Positions 40,448-62,884 of a stretch of 64,000 nt of DNA are shown here, piece by piece (the stretch's first letter is position 1; each line of letters opens with the position of its first letter). Position numbers and translations under genes: made by a program. The stretch lies in the NCBI GenBank assembly GCA_900635465.1, contig LR134135.1:3658001-3722000 (forward strand). The letters run 5' to 3'. The stretch is from Lelliottia amnigena. GTDB lineage: Bacteria > Pseudomonadota > Gammaproteobacteria > Enterobacterales > Enterobacteriaceae. The notes below the pieces were generated by a model. That model was not told where the DNA came from and searched no databases. It worked only from the letters and a program-made list of their open reading frames with translations.

Positions 40448-40523
40448 GGCCCCTTAGCTCAGTGGTTAGAGCAGGCGACTCATAATCGCTTGGTCGCTGG
40501 TTCAAGTCCAGCAGGGGCCACCA
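40448..40523 (+). tRNA. ileX: tRNA-Ile2 (anticodon CAT, lysidine-modified)
   Basis: A 76-base cloverleaf. The acceptor stem is GGCCCCT / AGGGGCC with encoded ACCA. The D-arm contains AGCTCAGTGGTTAGAGC and the T-arm GCTGGTTCAAGTCCAGC. Anticodon CAT is at 40481-40483 (tRNA positions 34-36). The sequence matches the E. coli ileX minor isoleucine tRNA reading AUA after lysidine modification, not a methionine tRNA. It lies downstream of mug as in E. coli. The island begins right after its 3' end, so this tRNA is the probable integration site. Confidence 0.95.
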
Positions 40524-42789: not shown

Positions 42790-43446
42790 GGCAAAACTCC
42801 TAATCAATGGTTGTAAGGATGGCACTGGATTCGGTACGGAGACGTAATGGGTGTATTCGAGCAGGCAGATGGCAATACCTGTGCGAAATGTATGAGGATA
42901 CGAAGCCAGTAATGAACCAGTGGTTCATACCCAATCAGAGTGTTAAAAATAAAAAATCTCGCAATCCAGTGAGGATGCGGGAGAATGCATAGGGATAATA
43001 TCTATCTGTAATTATTTAGAAAAATGGATTTGTTCCGAGACCTATTATGAAATTTTTTCGTTCAAATACTTCTCGGATATGATCGTCTGCAGGGTGCCAG
43101 AAGCGGAAGTTAACGTATTTGCTTAGGCGGCCAAATAAAAAAAGTACCTCACCCGGTTGACCCAATCAGCCAAAAATTTATTAATTCAACAAAGCCCTGA
43201 ACAACCCGCAACGTGAGGTGAAACACGCTCTTAAGCGGCAGTATGGTGGTAATGGCCATATCGGAATAGTGTTGCGGGCGATCTTGTGAGGACTGCATGG
43301 TGGTGTCATACCGGACCTAAATAGCGGATCGTCAAGCAAGTATGTGAGTGAATCGCGATGGGGCTGTAACTATAGCGAAATCGGAAAGAAATATTTAGAA
43401 TGATGGGTAAGACCTCCGCTGAGGATTGACAGGAAAAAATATAAGA
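42790..43446. other. Junction region between the RadC module and the conjugation locus; no gene recognised
   Basis: About 650 bases with many stops in all frames. A 16-residue open run ending NGHIGIVLRAIL-stop (to about 43289) may be a decayed gene end, but I cannot name it. AT content rises from about 42930 onward. This is where the CP4-type module ends and the defence cargo begins. It should hold the promoter of the ATPase gene. Confidence 0.4.
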
Positions 43447-44574
43447 ATGTTCAGTGCAATCGATAAGCTACTCAAAACTATCCCAGGTCTGACAGGACGT
43501 GAAATTGCCAAGCATCTTGATATTGACAAAAAAAAGGTCAACTCCTTTCTGAGTCGAAATAAACATCTATTTCAACAAACCGACGACTTCAAGTGGTATC
43601 AGTCAAAAAACAGAGAATTTGAACTTTCTTTTGCTCCTGTATCTTGGATGACCCAAGATCACTTTGAAGACGCACTCAGCGAACGTGGCAATCCTTTTGA
43701 TGGTACCTATAAATCGGCGATCATTACTTTTCCCAAAGATTGCTCACTGATGATGGTGGCTATTGCCAGGATGCTATCTTTACTTAACCAGCTTTCGTCC
43801 AAAAACATCGCGGTCACCATAGATTTATCGAAAAGTAAAAAAACAAGCTCTTTTCTTAACCGTTCTGGTTTTTTTGATCTGCTACATCAGGACATAACAG
43901 TCCTTCCATCCAGGCCAGAGCCCGGTAGTTCTGCAGCGGTGAAATACCAAGATAACAGCCATAGCCTTGTTGAATTTGGTGCTATTGAGCTTAATTCAAC
44001 AGACGCTGAAATCGGCCAACTGATACAAAGATTGGGAAAACGATTCGTTACTGCAGCTTCGAAAGATTACTTTCAGATCATAATGACGGTCTTTAGCGAA
44101 TTCATTCACAATGTGAAAGAACATAGCGATAGTCGTATTCCCGGGTTTGCAGCTTTGCAGAGTTACAATGGCCAAAGAAAGCACATCCAAACCGTCATTT
44201 CAGATAGTGGGGTTGGACTTGTGGCAACGCTGCGCGCAACGCTCAAAGAAAATTATCCTGATTTAGATGCTCAGTTCCCTGTCGGATCACCACATTCGGA
44301 TGTAGAACTCGTTAAGCACGTTTTCTCTAACGGTAGAATCAGTCGCCATGGTCCTAAGGGTGGTAGAGGTTTAGGTTTTGAGAGTTCCCGAAAACAAGCA
44401 TCCAAAAACGAAGCGCTACTCATCATCAGACAAACAACTTTCAGCATTGAGCAAAGGTACAAAGATGGGAATCTCCTATCATCAGAGGTCAGGAATGATC
44501 TGAGTTTGATAAGCGGTACTCATATTTGTTTCGATTTCTTTATTGACACTTCAGAAGATATCGGATTAATTTAA
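43447..44574 (+). CDS. GHKL-type (histidine-kinase-like) ATPase with N-terminal HTH
   Basis: 375 residues from ATG 43447; the frame also opens at a TTG seven codons earlier. An N-terminal winged-helix-like segment (about 11-45, GLTGREIAKHLDIDKKKVNSFLSR) is followed by a middle domain that may be STAS-like (about 88-155). A C-terminal GHKL ATP-binding domain has the N box EFIHNVKEHS (E218, N222), the G1 box SDSGVGL (253-257), the G2 box GGRGLG (305-310) and a closing GTHI. There is no phospho-accepting His box or receiver. This resembles anti-sigma or partner-switch kinases rather than classic sensor kinases. Four bases separate it from the STAS-like gene. Its job is inference: a sensor, kinase or switch for the conjugation operon downstream, or an independent two-gene defence unit. 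Confidence 0.82.
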   Translation: MFSAIDKLLKTIPGLTGREIAKHLDIDKKKVNSFLSRNKHLFQQTDDFKWYQSKNREFELSFAPVSWMTQDHFEDALSERGNPFDGTYKSAIITFPKDCSLMMVAIARMLSLLNQLSSKNIAVTIDLSKSKKTSSFLNRSGFFDLLHQDITVLPSRPEPGSSAAVKYQDNSHSLVEFGAIELNSTDAEIGQLIQRLGKRFVTAASKDYFQIIMTVFSEFIHNVKEHSDSRIPGFAALQSYNGQRKHIQTVISDSGVGLVATLRATLKENYPDLDAQFPVGSPHSDVELVKHVFSNGRISRHGPKGGRGLGFESSRKQASKNEALLIIRQTTFSIEQRYKDGNLLSSEVRNDLSLISGTHICFDFFIDTSEDIGLI

Positions 44575-44578
44575 TCAG

Positions 44579-45127
44579 ATGAAACAGAAATCTCTCATCA
44601 TCAAGCTCATAGATCTTGTCGGGGATTCTTTTGCATTCGGTAACGAAATGGGAAGAAAGGTCTTCGGTAAGCTACAACAGATAGTGGACGATAATCCTCA
44701 GGAGAATGTCTTCGGCATATCACTTGAAGGAATTGAAGCCACAGATGCCTCCTTCCCAAGAGAAAGTGTCATTTCACTGGCAAAGTTACTAAGAGAAGAC
44801 AAAGGGTTTTATCTCACTCGGGTCATGTCTAAAGACCTGCTTGATAACTGGTCATATGCCGCTACAGCAAAGGACCAACCAATTTTTGTTTATGACAACA
44901 GTTATAAAATTATTGGCCCAGCCCTGACTGAGGGGACAATGCAGCTCATTGATTTCATCATGAAAAATGAATTCACGACTACAAGCATGGTGGCATCAGA
45001 ATTTGATATATCTACTCAAAATGCCAGCGGCAAGCTCAAAAAACTTTACCGTCAAGGGCTTATCCTTGGCAAGAAGGAAGTTGCAGAGTCCGGTGGACAT
45101 GAGTTTGTCTACGTTCCAATAAAATAA
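44579..45127 (+). CDS. STAS-like DUF4325 protein with C-terminal winged helix
   Basis: 182 residues. The N-terminal part (about 15-100) matches the STAS-like DUF4325 pattern, with GDSFAFGNEMGRKVFGKL, FGISLEGIEATDASFPRES and the following helix VISLAKLLRED. The C-terminal part (about 125-180) reads as a winged HTH, with TTSMVASEFDISTQNASGKLKKLYRQGLI. DUF4325 proteins usually sit next to a GHKL ATPase, as here (4-base gap). In partner-switch systems a STAS protein is the phosphorylated partner of a GHKL kinase. Here, DUF4325 joined to a DNA-binding-type domain suggests a regulator. Function is not proven. Confidence 0.8.
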   Translation: MKQKSLIIKLIDLVGDSFAFGNEMGRKVFGKLQQIVDDNPQENVFGISLEGIEATDASFPRESVISLAKLLREDKGFYLTRVMSKDLLDNWSYAATAKDQPIFVYDNSYKIIGPALTEGTMQLIDFIMKNEFTTTSMVASEFDISTQNASGKLKKLYRQGLILGKKEVAESGGHEFVYVPIK

Positions 45128-45263
45128 ATCTGATAAATCTGCTTGCGTTAATCAGAACCTAGAGTTATCTTCCTACTTGTTGGCTTGCCAACTTGCGCTA
45201 TCTGGTAAATCTAGTTAACTTCACCAGAAATGATATCAATGGATAACCTACGAGACTGAAATC

Positions 45264-46355
45264 ATGATTACCTCCAATACCCAAAGCAGTAAGGAATGTA
45301 AAACAATTGAAATTGCTGATAAAAACCTGCATTTCAAACAGTTCATCGTTGATGACAACACACTCACAGGCAACCAAATCTCAGCAGTAGCGGGTTTCAA
45401 ACCGGATCAACTTCCCGTGATCCTGCAGATCCTGGCAAATGGTGCGCTTGAAAGCATAAGTCCTGGCGAACTTGCCCGCTCTGGTGCTGAGAATAATAAA
45501 TTTATCGTTGTTGAATCGGACCGGGTCTACTTTTTCACCGTTGATGGCGAACGCCTGGAGTGGCCATGTAATCAGATCACAGGGCATACTATTCGTAAGC
45601 TTGGCGATGTGGCTGAAGGAAAAAGGCTTCTGCTTGAAAAAGAAGATGCTGCTGATGCAGAGATTCAGGACCACCAGTTTGTATCCCTTGAACAAGAAGG
45701 CATTGAGCGTTTTATTAGCCGAGATCCGATCTGGAAGCTCAATGTCCAAGGCAAGGAGTATGTTTTTAACACCCCAGTGATCAGTGTCAGGGATGCAGTT
45801 GTAAAAGCAGGTCTGAATCCTGATCAAGCCTGGTTTATTTTTTTCAAGGTTCAAGGACAGCCAAAGGTAGAGAAAACCATTGATGATCATCTTGACCTAA
45901 CCACCCCTGGCATTGAAAAACTGCGTTTGACTCCACGCAATGTTGAAAACGGAGAAGCTACAACCACTCTCCGTTACGATTTTGGCCTTCTGGAGACTGA
46001 TGAAAAATACCTTAATGATATGGAGTACCGCTGGGAAACATGTTTTAGCAATCAATCACGCTGGCTCGTTATTAATGATTACCTTTTGCCTGAAGGGTAC
46101 AACCAAAAGAGTATCCAGCTAGCCTTGCTCATCCCTGAAGGCTACCCAATTAGCATGCTGGATATGTTCTACGTTTTTCCACCGCTTAAGCTGACAAATG
46201 GTTTAGAGATTCCAGCAACACATATCACGGCGGTAGTTGATCAGAATACATTCCAGGGATGGTCCCGCCATCGCCCTTGGGATCCAGCAACTGATACAGT
46301 AATTTCTCAACTGGCAATGGCTAATGGTTGTTTGCTTCAGGAGGTAGACCAGTGA
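45264..46355 (+). CDS. Multi-ubiquitin-like / prokaryotic E2 fusion protein
   Basis: 363 residues. Three beta-grasp ubiquitin-like units are readable at about 12-85, 88-152 and 156-223. Each has the pattern strand-strand, (T/V)(x)(G/V), helix, long loop and a final strand with G(I/V)E: GIERF ends unit 2 and PGIEKLRL ends unit 3. The C-terminal domain (about 237-357) fits the E2-like Prok-E2_E family, with YLLPEGY, LLIPEGYPISMLDMF and GWSRHRPWDPATD. Cys residues are at 12, 102, 260 and 356; which, if any, is catalytic is unclear. No Gly-Gly tail is present. It is first gene of the conjugation operon, 136 bases after the STAS-like gene, so it may have its own promoter. Its stop overlaps the next start. 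Confidence 0.85.
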   Translation: MITSNTQSSKECKTIEIADKNLHFKQFIVDDNTLTGNQISAVAGFKPDQLPVILQILANGALESISPGELARSGAENNKFIVVESDRVYFFTVDGERLEWPCNQITGHTIRKLGDVAEGKRLLLEKEDAADAEIQDHQFVSLEQEGIERFISRDPIWKLNVQGKEYVFNTPVISVRDAVVKAGLNPDQAWFIFFKVQGQPKVEKTIDDHLDLTTPGIEKLRLTPRNVENGEATTTLRYDFGLLETDEKYLNDMEYRWETCFSNQSRWLVINDYLLPEGYNQKSIQLALLIPEGYPISMLDMFYVFPPLKLTNGLEIPATHITAVVDQNTFQGWSRHRPWDPATDTVISQLAMANGCLLQEVDQ

Positions 46356-47734
46356 ACAAATATACTAATCTAGTCTTACCAGAGCATCTTCATCAACAAC
46401 TTAAGAATCATCTCTTTCCGGGTGATGGTATGGAGGCTGCGGCAATTTTGCTCTGTAATCGTTATGAAGGAAATCGCCTGAAGCTGCTCGCTAAAGACGT
46501 CATTACGGTGCCCTATGATGAATGTAAATCACGCCAAAATGATTTTATATCCTGGCCAGGGCTGTACCTTGAAAGCGCGATTGATGCTGCAGAAGCAGCT
46601 TCAATGTCCATTCTACTTGTCCACTCACATCCGGGTGGACTCCTGGATTTTTCGCTGCAAGATGATGAAAGTGATGCTATGACAATTCCCTCTCTTTATC
46701 AGGGCGTCACAGCGATCCATGGCTCAGCTATCATGGTACCTGATGGTCGGCTACGGGCTCGCATCTATCCTGAAGGGATACACGCGCGAAACGTAGATCT
46801 TGTTAGTGTACCAGGCGATAACATTTGTCTCTGGCGAGCTGATGAAAAAGTTACGCAAAATAAAGTTATAGCGTTTACTTCAGGTATGACCGCCTGCTTT
46901 AACCATCTCACCGCAGCGATTATTGGGGTCTCCGGTACCGGTTCAATTGTCGCTGAACAGATAACACGGTTGGGATTTGGCAAAATTTTACTCGTCGATG
47001 ATGACCATATCGAAGAAAAGAACCTGAACAGGATCCTGAATTCAACTTTGGCAGATGCTTCGCTCAATAAATCAAAGGTTGATATGTTTGCCTGCGCAGT
47101 AGCCAAGATTCGTGGAGAAGATGTTGCTGTCCCAATCCATAAGTCTGTATTTTCCAGAGAGGCTGTATTGATGGTTGCTGACGCAGACGTTATTTTTTGC
47201 TGTGTGGACAGTTACCAAGGGCGAATGGTTGCAGATCTCATTTCCTCGGCATTCCTTATCCCACTTCTAGATGTCGGGGTCAAAATACCAACTCATATTG
47301 AACCGGAAGATGGCAGAAAGATCACTGATGTTAGCGGGAGAATTGACTATGTGAAGCCTGGAGGGACAACACTTTTCGATCGTGAAGTATACACATCAGC
47401 CCTGCTTCATCAGGAGATGCTCTCGAAAACACAACCAGCGCTTTATCAAGAGCAACAGGCTCAAGGTTACATAACAGGGATTCAGGAAGAAGCACCGTCA
47501 GTTATTACTCTCAACATGCGGGCTGCGTCAGCATGCGTTTCAGAGTTTATTGCCAGATGCTTCCCGTTTCGTGAAGACCCTAACGCTTACTTTGCCCGGA
47601 CTCGTTTCAGCCTTGCGGGAGCAGATGAGGACTATTATAAGGAGGATTCATTTGTTAAAAGAAGTAATGCCCATCTTGCAGAAGCATGCCGAGAACCTCT
47701 GCTTGGCTTTCCTGAACTGAGGGCCACAAAATGA
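46352..47734 (+). CDS. JAB protease / E1-like (ThiF-fold) fusion protein
   Basis: 460 residues from a GTG at 46352, with AGGAGG seven bases before it and a four-base overlap (GTGA) with the preceding gene. The N-terminal JAB/JAMM metalloprotease domain (about 1-155) has the catalytic Glu28 (GMEAA) and HSHPGGLLDFSLQDD (H91, H93, S101, D104). The ThiF/E1 adenylation domain (about 170-400) has IIGVSGTGSIVAEQ, VDDDHIEEKNLNR (Asp216, Arg227) and VIFCCVDSYQGR (Cys283-Cys284). It should adenylate a ubiquitin-like partner and also cleave conjugates or precursors. The PGG motif at 336-338 is not followed by the cysteines often seen there (it reads PGGTTLFD). Confidence 0.88.
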   Translation: MNKYTNLVLPEHLHQQLKNHLFPGDGMEAAAILLCNRYEGNRLKLLAKDVITVPYDECKSRQNDFISWPGLYLESAIDAAEAASMSILLVHSHPGGLLDFSLQDDESDAMTIPSLYQGVTAIHGSAIMVPDGRLRARIYPEGIHARNVDLVSVPGDNICLWRADEKVTQNKVIAFTSGMTACFNHLTAAIIGVSGTGSIVAEQITRLGFGKILLVDDDHIEEKNLNRILNSTLADASLNKSKVDMFACAVAKIRGEDVAVPIHKSVFSREAVLMVADADVIFCCVDSYQGRMVADLISSAFLIPLLDVGVKIPTHIEPEDGRKITDVSGRIDYVKPGGTTLFDREVYTSALLHQEMLSKTQPALYQEQQAQGYITGIQEEAPSVITLNMRAASACVSEFIARCFPFREDPNAYFARTRFSLAGADEDYYKEDSFVKRSNAHLAEACREPLLGFPELRATK

Positions 47735-48072
47735 GCTTTATGAAAACTCTCTTATCTGCACTAATACGTGGCGCAGAACCATGGCTTCCTGCAAGACAGC
47801 TACTCATTATAGAGGGCGATATGTTACCGGCAAAAATACCGCGGCGGACAGTCATTTTAACGAAAGATGGAGATGAGGATTGGAGTGTCGGTTTCAGATG
47901 CCCCTGTGGGTGTGGTTCTGTTATTGAACTATTACTTATTAAAGATGCCACACCACACTGGAGTTACATTGTTGATAAAAATAACAGGCCTTCCCTGTAT
48001 CCTTCGGTCTGGCTGAATACAGGATGTGAATCACATTTTTGGCTGAAAAATGGTCGCATATACTGGGCTTAA
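47731..48072 (+). CDS. DUF6527 zinc-binding protein of ubiquitin-like operons
   Basis: 113 residues. A CPCGCG knuckle (Cys57, 59, 61) and a C-terminal TGCESHFWLKNGRIYW (Cys99, His102) make a probable zinc site, the hallmark of the DUF6527 family that accompanies bacterial E1/E2/JAB operons. PSVWLN is also family-typical. The ATG overlaps the JAB-E1 stop (ATGA), so it belongs to the same translational unit. Its role is unknown; a RING-like or structural adaptor is a guess only. Confidence 0.82.
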   Translation: MSFMKTLLSALIRGAEPWLPARQLLIIEGDMLPAKIPRRTVILTKDGDEDWSVGFRCPCGCGSVIELLLIKDATPHWSYIVDKNNRPSLYPSVWLNTGCESHFWLKNGRIYWA

Positions 48073-59657: not shown

Positions 59658-62600
59658 TTAACTAACCAGTACAGCCTCAAAATCGGCAACGGTTAATTCT
59701 GATGCTCCTTTTAACATGTCTCTTGCCAGAGCACGACGACGATTAAGCAACTCATCCAGTGTTTCTTCAAAAGTCATTAATTCACTATCACGGACCGTAG
59801 GGTAATAAACATAAACATCTTTTGTTTGGCCAATACGATAAGCGCGGTCTGTTGCCTGATCTTCTTTTGCTGGATTCCAACAACGCGTAAAGTGAATAAC
59901 ATGGTTGGCTTTCTGTACATTGACACCAAAACCGACAGCAACAGTTGAAAGTATAATGGCGTTAAATCCCTCGGCATCCTGAAATTGGTCTATCAGGCTT
60001 TGACGGTTTTGACTGCTTCCAGATTTAGTACTGGTATCTCCATTGATAATAAAAGGCTTAAAACCAAAGTTGTGTAATACCATCTGCTGTAATTCCCGCT
60101 GAATATCACGCAACTCAGTAAAAATAATTACCTTATCATCAGAAGATCGTTGTATGCGCCTTAGCGTTTCAAGCATCCACTTAACTTTCGGAGCATTGTC
60201 ACGCATACGTAAGTCAGCACTGACTGAATAAGGCAAGGCGCAAATCAACTTAAGACGATGTAATAAACCAAGCATACCGGCCCCACGCTGCTCAAGGCCC
60301 TCACTCATTTCCTGCTGGCTTCGCCACTTCGCTATCGAATGAGTATAGAGATCACGCTGCAGTGGCAACATGCTTAATTTTTTACAGATCTGGTCTTCAA
60401 TTTTTGCAGGGAGATCTCGTGCCACATCTTCTTTAATTCTACGAAGAGTCTGGGGTTCGATTAATTTACGGAGCTTTTCAAGAGCAACTTCATCGCCCTG
60501 TTGTTCGATAGGGCGTAAATAGTCCTTACCAAAATTATTTAATGCACCGAGAAGTCCAGGCTGGACAAAGTCAAACAGGCACCATAAATCAACCAATGTA
60601 TTTTCAACGGGTGTACCGGTGCATGCCACTTTAAATCGGGCTTGAATGGCCTTAGCTGAGTGGGTTATTAATGCCGCCGGGTTTTTAATCTTTTGGGCCT
60701 CATCACAAACCATGATAGACCATGATTGGCGTGCCAGAGAAAACTCTTGATCTCGCAATGTTTCATAGGTTGTAAGGACGATACGTGCATCGCCGACCCA
60801 GTCATTTTGCAATAAATTTTTAATACCTTTATTTCTTATCTCAGACGGGAGACTTTCCTTAGGACATTTTTTATCTCGTAACTCATTCCCATACAGTTTT
60901 AATATTGAAATTTGATCACGATAGAAAAAATTACCCACTTCACGTTCCCAGTTATCAAGTAATGATACAGGGGCTACGATCAAAGCTGGGTCGCCATTCG
61001 GAAATTGTTCAATATGCCAAACCAAAAATGTGAGGATCTGCAGCGTCTTCCCAAGTCCCATATCGTCTGCCAGTAAACAACCGGTAGTTTCAGTCGGTGA
61101 CTTGAGAAAGAGCTGTTGTAACCAGGCAACACCTTTACGCTGATGTTCCCGTAACACGATGTTTTCTCTTAGGGCTAAAGGTAGCTCTGGCTCAGCTTGA
61201 TGAGCTGATAACAATGATGCACGCCGCTGCTTGACGTAAAGAGCTTGTTCGATATTCTGCTCAATCAGTAACACGGCCCTACTCTGTGGATCAGCAGGTC
61301 CTGATGTGTCGCTATCATCAGCTATTTTTTTAGACCATTTATCATGGAAAATCTCAGCATCTTCTCGCGGCAGAAGATTATCATTCCAGGGCATAGCGAC
61401 TTCAGTTGCTTCAGTATCCTTGGCTTGTTGTATACGCTCTTCAAGTTCATGGAAATGCTGTTGATTGTCCAGATCCCAGCCCGAAAACATGGCTTCACAC
61501 ATCTCTTTTGCCACATCATCCGGAAGCCATTTCTCGCTTTCACTTTTAACCAGGTAAGGTGAACTGATTTTTTCAAATTCGCCAATACCAATGACCCTGT
61601 CACTGTATTTTTGCAGATCCAGTACGTGTGTAAAATCATGCCCTCCGCCTGCTTTTGCCAGGTTTCGACAAGGGATTGATAGCTTTCAAGATCTGCAGAA
61701 GTCAGCCTTCCTAACTCAATATCGTAACCTTGCCAAATACCGACCGGTAAGTCAGAAGCCAACTTCAGTTGCAGCTCTTTAATGAAGCTTTCAAGTTCAA
61801 ATGGGCGAGTGAAATTAAATGTTTCATCCGCTTGGGGGGTTTCTGTTCTGGGACTTAGAATAAGCGAAACTGCGGCTATTTCATTCTGTTCACTAAAATT
61901 CGGTTCCAGACGAAAGTCATAGAAATAGATCCCTGCTTCCTGCAGATCTTTCTCATATACGTCTGGATCTAAAACCTTGCTTGCATCCTCACCAACCCAA
62001 GAATAAGGGTTACGAATAAAAGATAACGCATCATCTCCAGCTACACGACGCCCGGTAATCGCATGAACGGAAGACAGAACTTCTTTAACCTCGGGTGATA
62101 AAATGACATGGTTTAGCTCACCATCTTCGCCCAGTACACGATACCGGTCCTGCACTTGCTGTGTACGGTCAAAGCTTTGTAACCAGTTGACGGGTTGATC
62201 TTCAAAGGTGGGTTCAATTTCATAAACCTTTGTATCCGCTATCCGAGCCTCACGTAATTTGAGCTGTAAAGATTCTGGCCGGACAACAATAGTTTTCGTC
62301 AAATAATCGTCCATTTTCGCGCAGGCTTTTTTCGCCTGGCGCCGAATCTTTGCCCACCCCATCTGGTTAACCGCTTCACCTGGCTGTTGGCTCTGCTGCT
62401 GGCGTAACTGCTTGAGGGAATCAATCAAATGCCAGTTTTCAGAATTCAAAATGAATGTGCCTTCAGACGTCGAAAAACTCGCACCAGTTCGCTTCATTTC
62501 AACAACGCGGTAATCTTCAGGATGGGTCCATTTATCTATAATGACGCGAAAATTATCATCGCTAATGCTGCCTGAAGAAGAAAGATGCGCCACCAGCTCA

Positions 62601-62884
62601 CGTTGCGGTGGAAAAGCAAAGATTCCTAAACTTGTCGCGTAATCTTCTACACCATTTAGACGATAAAAATCATCCCAGCTCAAGAACCAACAATCAGACC
62701 AGTGGGAGACATAGTCCTCTTCATGCAACTGCTCAAGGCAGGAAACAACGAGCCAATTATCTTTGTTATCTGCTAAATGAAACGCAAATGCCAACCCTTC
62801 AGGTTGGATGGTGTACAGCGGTTCAACGGGTAGCGACAGTGCTGTTTTATCTTTGATAAATTTACTTAGCAGACTTTTGAACAT
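59658..62884 (-). pseudogene. zorD: Zorya type I ZorD-like SNF2 helicase, frameshifted by one base
   Basis: Two overlapping frames make one protein of about 1075 residues, near the length of ZorD. The N-terminal half (from MFKSLLSKFIKDK) has no recognised motif. The C-terminal half is a SNF2/RapA-type helicase: LLADDMGLGKTLQIL (Walker A), VCDEAQKIKN (DEAQ), and QATDRAYRIGQTKDVY (motif VI). The break is at CCC 61641-61643 (+ strand). With one more base the reading passes AEGHDFTHVLDLQKYSDRV into the helicase part. ZorD acts in phage DNA degradation in type I Zorya. The gene start overlaps the ZorC stop by one base (TAATG). A sequencing indel is likely. Confidence 0.8.

Follow-up and report, generated by a model that had tools for sequence, protein, structure and literature searches.

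A CapK-CapS-preceded Bub operon in a tRNA-integrated defence island of Lelliottia amnigena, with a proposed modification cycle

The window, a 64,000-nucleotide stretch of Lelliottia amnigena DNA, contains three forward-strand genes, bubAB, bubCD and a gene for a DUF6527 protein, in which neighbouring open reading frames share a 4 bp overlap (Table 1). The initial annotation had placed these three genes correctly, and the families it named are all matched in Pfam above curated cut-offs: Multi_ubiq in three stretches (2.1e-23) and Prok-E2_E (4.8e-29) in BubAB, ThiF (1.8e-18) and Prok-JAB (4.4e-7) in BubCD, and DUF6527 (PF20137, 9.5e-23) in the third protein. It began the unit too late, missing CapK and CapS, encoded upstream of bubAB at 43447-45127, and the operator-like sites that accompany them.

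Table 1. Features of the locus, with positions counted from the first letter of the window
Feature	Position	Strand	Basis or remark
tRNA gene with anticodon CAT, whose final 47 bp (40477-40523) form the left attachment repeat	40448..40523	+	ARAGORN
capK, HTH-STAS-GHKL kinase by homology	43447..44574	+	375 aa from ATG; 382 aa from TTG at 43426
Narrow CapS-type palindrome GATTAATTTAATC (TTAA-N1-TTAA), across the capK end	44564..44576	.	pattern search
capS, STAS-winged HTH repressor; S58 aligns with the phosphoacceptor	44579..45127	+	182 aa; PDB
Wide CapS-type palindrome GATAAA-N10-TTAATC, ahead of the bub genes	45132..45153	.	one mismatch in the TTAA cores
Second wide palindrome, degenerate, GGTAAA-N10-TTCACC, placed 72 bp after the first	45204..45225	.	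locus comparison
bubAB, three Ubl units followed by a Prok-E2_E domain	45264..46355	+	363 aa; Pfam, PDB
Codons Asn229-Gly230-Glu231, maturation site predicted at the Ubl3/E2 joint	45948..45956	+	NGE conservation
Codon Ser334, candidate for the catalytic residue in the E2 domain	46263..46265	+	invariance
bubCD, JAMM/JAB protease followed by a ThiF/E1 adenylation domain	46352..47734	+	460 aa from GTG; Pfam, PDB
DUF6527 protein, CxCxC-x37-CxxH signature	47731..48072	+	113 aa; PF20137

Operons of this kind were first set out by Iyer et al. 2006 (PMC1779556) as polyUbl type 6e. Judged by its sequence, the locus is a further copy of the already published Bub (bacterial ubiquitination-like) operon, as the type is now called; the initial annotation was right that these families co-occur in bacterial operons and had left the published kind unnamed. 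Row 6e in Table 1 of that paper lists a polyUbl protein, a Cys-less and sometimes fused E2, a JAB-E1 protein and a metal-binding protein. Three of these are present here as a multi-Ubl modifier, a Prok-E2_E domain without a conserved cysteine and a JAB-E1 protein with its JAMM and ATP-site residues, and the fourth is matched by DUF6527 through its sequence signature only. The row's metal signature, C-x3-C-x(35-38), is printed with H-x2-C last, whereas C-x2-H is found here in 121/121 sequences, and the passages on 6e name no regulator, whereas CapK-CapS lie upstream here. Alignments of 121 sequences comprise the query and the 120 best homologs listed, while the set of 79 loci is more diverse. 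The Citrobacter Bub system (PDB 9ea4, 9ea5, 9ea8, 9eae and 9eav; also 9d59 and 9d5a) likewise has a three-Ubl BubA, an E2, BubB, and BubCD; PDB sequence searches aligned BubAB residues 12-230 with 9d59 (E 7.5e-93), BubAB residues 229-363 with BubB 9eav_D (E 2.8e-47) and BubCD residues 6-456 with 9ea4_A (E 2.4e-199), and the difference observed is sequence divergence only.

The Bil (bacterial ISG15-like) anti-phage system also combines a Ubl, an E1, an E2 and a JAB-type protease, and its E2 carries an active-site cysteine. Here, in contrast, there are two fused proteins plus DUF6527 and no conserved E2 cysteine, and the Ubl part matches M. brachiatum BilA (8u38) at E 1.1e-11, far more weakly than BubA. 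Membership of Bil was rejected, as no E2 cysteine column exceeds 81/121. Type II CBASS, with Cap2 (E1-E2) and Cap3 (JAB), shows a distant likeness in the E1 (best PADLOC E1-E2 model, 1.2e-9), whereas the present operon has a Ubl of its own. The type II CBASS operon includes a CD-NTase; scans of nine proteins from the locus against PADLOC, Pfam or NCBIfam matched no such nucleotide cyclase, and membership of this system was rejected as well.

CapK and CapS are a DNA-damage kinase/repressor pair described in E. roggenkampii and V. cholerae; of the 443 cases published, 348 have capKS ahead of an immune operon, known or predicted, and 231 of these operons are Bub (PMC13373217). Here capK directly precedes capS. 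CapK has no PDB sequence match and no Pfam match above cut-off, but its GHKL-type motif (E225, N229, H233, D260, G262 and G264, in the 382-aa numbering) and W74 are invariant in 14 aligned sequences; the N-box Asn N229 and the ssDNA-stacking Trp W74 were equated with the published N218 and W68 by motif, without alignment to the published protein. CapS matches PDB 9z72 (E 6.2e-60) and 9z71 (E 4.2e-43), and its S58, N148, K154, G172 and G173 are invariant in 14 aligned sequences. Gene order, domains, the CapS phosphoserine and TTAA palindromes whose half-sites stand 1 bp or 10 bp apart are shared with the published pairs.

These palindromes stand in the expected places, the narrow one, with the published spacing (PMC13373217), ahead of capS and the wide one ahead of the operon. 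With patterns picked after the sites had been seen, the narrow form gave one match and none in 100 shuffles, and the wide form one match against a shuffle mean of 0.02 (2/100 with one). The locus differs from the published pairs in its half-sites, GATTAA/TTAATC, and in having a further wide site some 72 bp beyond the first, a feature that recurs in several loci: paired wide sites 68-75 bp apart were found in 8/14 loci, compared with 0.16% of random 138-bp segments having two such sites 60-80 apart and 11% having at least one. Since CapK-CapS form part of the unit, the Bub operon would, by homology, be switched by DNA damage through the predicted sites.

The genomic island proposed by the initial annotation could be delimited. 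The 47-bp repeat at the tRNA end has an exact second copy beside an integrase 45.6 kb downstream, outside the window (G000:C1:3744048-3744094), and the island carries McrBC, Zorya and type I R-M genes along with the integrase. Its ZorD gene is split between frames. The operon is cargo of this tRNA-integrated mobile defence island, and we are fairly confident in reading the whole as CapKS-controlled Bub cargo that works through the cycle proposed below.

An anti-phage role is plausible and is the benefit we favour. The defensive character put forward in the initial annotation is circumstantial: a 2026 EMBO J paper (PMC13373217) reports Bub operons as so far without demonstrated phage protection, whereas a 2025 review considers that such systems appear mainly to serve phage defence and groups Bub there. 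A serious possibility, if not the one we expect, is that Bub performs general tagging in the response to DNA damage or stress instead of phage defence, its place in the island resulting from mobility. CapKS responds to DNA damage rather than to phage as such, the authors of PMC13373217 left this reading open, and relatives at E <= 1e-30 occur on 87 plasmid records, 49 of them typed conjugative. The defence genes that neighbour the operon in the island, the frequency with which capKS stands ahead of immune operons and the placement of Bub in the review argue against this reading.

The residues singled out in the initial annotation, H91 and H93 of the JAB domain and R227 of the E1, proved to be the right ones, being invariant in 121/121 sequences and 79/79 diverse loci. 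The JAMM residues E28, S101 and D104 are likewise present in 121/121 (E28 in 77/79 diverse loci, S101 and D104 in 78/79), as are glycines 192, 195 and 197 (GVSGTGS). In BubAB, the Ubl3/E2 joint reads NGE in 121/121 sequences; NG is kept in 78/78 diverse loci, followed by E in 72 and D in 6. The best-matching BubA chains, 9d59 and 9ea8_B, stop at the Gly230 position, and the BubB match starts at 229. One locus (L115) encodes a stand-alone Multi_ubiq protein with a C-terminal Gly beside a separate Prok-E2_E gene. Given the invariant joint and the solved Citrobacter chains that end and begin there, the JAB domain most likely cuts BubAB at Asn-Gly-Glu, and the fusion is probably a precursor processed after Gly230. 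Two polypeptides holding the whole cycle, as first described, would then be the translated form and not the working one.

In the proposed cycle, DNA damage would give rise to single-stranded DNA, upon which CapK would phosphorylate CapS at S58; the CapS dimer would leave the palindromes and bubAB-bubCD-DUF6527 would be transcribed, all these steps by homology with the published pairs. The JAB domain of BubCD would cut BubAB after Gly230, releasing the E2 from a triple-Ubl modifier that now ends in Gly. BubCD would then adenylate this Gly through its E1 domain, and the Gly would be passed to the E2, probably as a Ser334 ester because no cysteine is conserved there, and then to the target; the JAB domain may also strip the modifier off targets. 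The locus is a compact, selected enterobacterial example whose damage switch and palindromes are legible in the DNA, so that a single construct in laboratory E. coli could serve to test how it is regulated, whether the precursor is cleaved and what DUF6527 contributes. It also makes testable what Bub modifies and whether a serine stands in for the E2 cysteine.

The E2-like assignment stood, with the correction that no cysteine column of this domain is conserved among the 121 sequences, the best being C356 (81/121) and then C260 (35/121). Ser334, in contrast, is serine in 121/121 sequences and 78/78 diverse loci; W333 and R335 are also invariant in 121/121, and R335 in 78/78. A missing cysteine and an invariant serine make non-thioester chemistry likely, with Ser334 as the candidate. 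It is unlikely that the domain is a dead, RWD-like Ubl binder and that BubCD, with or without DUF6527, produces the conjugates. The inactive E2/RWD-like label was given in Iyer et al. 2006 (PMC1779556) because the cysteine is absent, yet the invariant W333/S334/R335 would exceed the needs of a simple binding fold, and the solved entries 9eae and 9eav contain both Citrobacter BubB and BubCD. Far less probable is a canonical thioester relay in which Cys284 of the E1 and a shifted E2 cysteine work as in eukaryotes: Cys284 is almost invariant, but it belongs to an FCCVD stretch within the nucleotide fold, cysteine reaches half of the sequences in no column from 320 to 390, and the E2 columns are as variable as stated.

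DUF6527 is a core component and near-constant companion in the relatives examined. Gene order across homologous loci is AB-CD-DUF6527, with DUF6527 after BubCD in 78/80 and the contig stopping beforehand in the other two, and its divergence is correlated with that of CD (Mantel r 0.787; top of 999 permutations 0.188). The protein is small, as the initial annotation had it, and Cys-rich, and its metal binding is predicted from the CxCxC-x37-CxxH signature only, whose spacing of 37 is kept in 121/121 sequences. Most likely it binds metal and either recognises the target or docks the E2 onto it, roles that Iyer et al. 2006 (PMC1779556) proposed for the zinc-finger component encoded in such operons. 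DUF6527 is also found elsewhere without Ubl genes, and it has prophage and orphan relatives. In one locus (L110) its operon encodes just one Ubl, an E1 of DUF6791-ThiF type and a TIR protein, and neither JAB nor Prok-E2_E was found there. Only tentatively, and with rather low confidence, might DUF6527 be an E3-like substrate-recognition subunit of bacterial Ubl pathways, acting with a serine-based E2, its prophage and orphan relatives being captured or counter-acting copies; if so, it would be a bacterial E3 whose fold has no clear match.

The bub genes are real, beyond chance, as the 219, 309 and 2629 homologs of the three proteins at E <= 1e-3 (2629 takes in other E1s) and their selection attest. 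All five genes, capK, capS, bubAB, bubCD and DUF6527, are under purifying selection, with dN/dS of 0.08-0.13 against a C. koseri plasmid copy. That the locus is decaying, functionless island cargo, as the broken ZorD gene might suggest, is scarcely credible, with all five genes open and so constrained and the palindromes retained in the plasmid copy.

The three open reading frames proposed by the initial annotation, neighbours among which share 4 bp overlaps, are present, and an HMM search placed their claimed families (Multi_ubiq and Prok-E2_E, Prok-JAB and ThiF, DUF6527) above the Pfam cut-offs. PDB sequence searches matched BubAB residues 12-230 to 9d59, a 'Multi-ubiquitin domain-containing protein' (E 7.5e-93), residues 229-363 to Citrobacter BubB (E 2.8e-47) and BubCD residues 6-456 to Citrobacter BubCD (E 2.4e-199). 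Row 6e of Iyer et al. 2006 (PMC1779556) lists a polyUbl protein of two to three Ubl domains, a Cys-less E2/RWD-like domain fused to it in some species, a JAB-E1 fusion and a metal-binding protein. As regards later literature, PMC13373217 (EMBO J 2026) counts 544 Bub operons and states phage protection by them as not demonstrated, and a 2025 review (PMC12687455) has bacterial Ubl operons, Bub among them, appearing primarily anti-phage. The row 6e type is now named Bub, and the operon studied here is a well-preserved further copy of this already described kind. The earlier interpretation is partly supported: a Ubl-conjugation operon in a mobile island holds, the CapK/CapS regulatory half upstream had been missed, and the kind is one already published.

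Coordinates of the features discussed (window positions unless a locus or contig is named)
Feature	Position	Strand	Length (aa)
tRNA 3'-end repeat	40477-40523		
capK	43447-44574	+	
Narrow palindrome	44564-44576		
capS	44579-45127	+	182
First wide palindrome	45132-45153		
Inverted repeat GTTGGC-TT-GCCAAC	45179-45192		
Second wide palindrome	45204-45225		
bubAB	45264-46355	+	363
bubCD	46352-47734	+	460
DUF6527 gene	47731-48072	+	113
Type I Zorya zorD	59658-62884		
Second copy of tRNA repeat	G000:C1:3744048-3744094 (same genome)		
Region 3' of C. koseri plasmid copy	L001:17952-26204		
TIR-containing DUF6527 operon	L110:3279-7950 (G370:C1)	-	
Tandem DUF6527 pair	L113:3327-4441		

Sequence searches matched CapS to PDB 9z72 (E 6.2e-60) and 9z71 (E 4.2e-43), which are V. 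cholerae and E. roggenkampii CapS according to PMC13373217. Its phosphoserine position (S58) and DNA contacts (N148, K154, G172, G173) are invariant among 14 aligned sequences, as are the GHKL-type motif residues and one tryptophan of CapK. The identity of CapK rests on these motifs and on position, since a PDB sequence search gave no match, a Pfam search none above cut-off, and the PHROG family matched (2.6e-15) is of unknown function. The narrow palindrome over the capK stop is perfect, and the wide one 5' of bubAB has a 10-bp spacer, as published, with a single mismatch in its core; the search patterns for these two were fixed only after the sites had been seen. A second, degenerate wide site lies 72 bp 3' of the first. 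With at most one mismatch allowed, a narrow site occurs near the capK end in 7/14 loci and a wide site 3' of capS in 13/14. By one fixed criterion, wide sites are paired 68-75 bp apart in 8 of the 14 loci and no wide site was found in two; 0.16% of random 138-bp window segments have two such sites 60-80 bp apart, and 11% at least one. A perfect inverted repeat lies between both wide sites, with a similar sequence in the C. koseri plasmid copy (L001) and a slightly altered one in L005. Single-sequence searches found CapK and CapS together in 13/80 Bub loci, fragmented in one (L004).

At the Ubl/E2 joint, Asn229-Gly230-Glu231 is identical in 121/121 aligned sequences (the query and the 120 best homologs listed); among 78 GTDB loci Asn-Gly is constant, followed by Glu in 72 and Asp in 6. 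PDB chains 9d59 and 9ea8_B stop at the Gly230 equivalent, and the BubB match starts at 229. Where the genes are separate (L115), the Multi_ubiq protein ends in Gly and adjoins a Prok-E2_E gene, and single-Ubl proteins end one (L113) or two (L110) residues past a Gly. BubAB is best read as a precursor that the JAB domain would cut. The E2 has no conserved cysteine in the same 121 sequences (best column Cys in 81), while Ser334, within a WSRxRxW motif, is invariant both there and in the 78 loci, 7 of which have Leu for the second Arg; an ester on serine is therefore the likely E2 intermediate, judging from conservation. Non-thioester chemistry has reportedly been described for Bub. In the E1, nearly invariant Cys284 belongs to an FCCVD stretch within the nucleotide fold, and across residues 320-390 no position has Cys in as many as half of the 121 sequences.

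DUF6527 is a core part of the Bub operon type. Among 80 genome loci collected with a BubCD profile, it lies directly 3' of BubCD in 78 (in pieces in L004 and L074), and in the other two the contig stops 90 (L013) and 2 (L057) bases past the BubCD frame. The BubCD gene is fragmented in L072 and also in L004; in the latter, from Enterobacter sp. EA-1, the Bub genes and those of CapKS are split into many frames across the locus, which looks more like low-quality assembly than decay. DUF6527 and BubCD divergence are correlated (Mantel r 0.787, n=77 including the window; the highest value among 999 permutations was 0.188), as are DUF6527-BubAB (r 0.780) and AB-CD (r 0.867), which indicates co-inheritance and not contact, because loci of the same lineage have a common history. 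The signature, C57-x-C59-x-C61-x37-C99-x2-H102, keeps its spacing of 37 in the query and all 120 best homologs listed (121/121). The text of PMC1779556 gives C-x3-C-x(35-38) for the metal-binding protein of row 6e, a suspected target recogniser; the fitting spacing identifies DUF6527 with it, although the last two residues stand in a different order in the printed signature. Neither sequence nor profile searches of the PDB gave a significant match for the protein, and its confident AlphaFold2 model (pLDDT 92) gave no clear match. An 81-residue DUF6527 protein of Cronobacter muytjensii is 98% identical over half of the query.

DUF6527 is also found outside the Bub operon type. It occurs in 9/321 sampled genomes of the class (8 above cut-off), Prok-E2_E in 6 and both together, about 3 kb apart at most, in 5; DUF6791 occurs in one. 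The remaining three genomes with DUF6527 above cut-off are G370, G158 and G179. In the 14 control genomes, Prok-E2_E was found in none, and DUF6527 in Caulobacter vibrioides. The G370 operon (L110), opened by a single Multi_ubiq Ubl, places DUF6527 between a DUF6791-ThiF E1 and a TIR-domain protein, and also has an HTH plus M78-like peptidase (CapH/CapP-like, the M78 match below cut-off) and a 129-aa unknown; JAB and Prok-E2_E were not found among the proteins scanned. By eye, the listed ORFs around DUF6527 in G158 include no recognisable Ubl gene. Conversely, DUF6527 is missing from G133, where a Ubl-E2 gene and a JAB-like/E1 gene are both present. An E3-like role for DUF6527, as the substrate-recognition subunit of bacterial Ubl pathways, seems unlikely to us, and slightly more so given this fuller count. 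A diverged DUF6527 gene (L099, G179:C164) stands amid short ORFs resembling a prophage lysis region, as judged by eye over 3.2 kb, a setting in keeping with the weak hits of the window's own DUF6527 protein to phage families (phrog_15183, 3e-5; phrog_3362, 0.003). A tandem pair of DUF6527 genes was seen near a single-Ubl, separate-E2 Bub-like operon (L113).

An exact repeat of the final 47 bp of the tRNA lies 45.6 kb further along, next to a phage-type integrase, and the island carries CbtA/CbeA, RadC, the Bub cassette, McrBC, Zorya genes, a type I R-M system and two PDC-M16 candidate defence genes. Zorya comprises ZorA, ZorB and a split ZorD, with a gene in between outside the scan; ZorD lies in two overlapping frames matching C-terminal and N-terminal profile parts, either a frame break or a sequencing error. 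This tRNA site close to rpoD is a hotspot for islands: an extra copy of its 3' end (at least 34 bp, at least 98% identical) lies downstream, at varying distances, in 11/30 genus genomes including the window's own. The nearest relative at this site (G004, 96%) has the repeat 32 kb downstream, and no strong BubCD match was found there. BubCD matches at E <=1e-3 occur in 60/60 genus genomes, but most are weak and cover the E1 part. Full-length matches were found in two genomes, that of the window and another at 67% identity; in a third genome, residues 42-412 are matched at 29%. A conjugative IncHI2A plasmid of C. koseri bears a five-gene copy that is 91.6% identical in DNA over the three bub genes. 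Relatives of BubCD at E <=1e-30 were found on 87 plasmid records, of which 49 are typed as conjugative. Downstream of the C. koseri copy come a regulator, a helicase-family gene, a site-specific integrase and further hypothetical genes, possibly another mobile setting.
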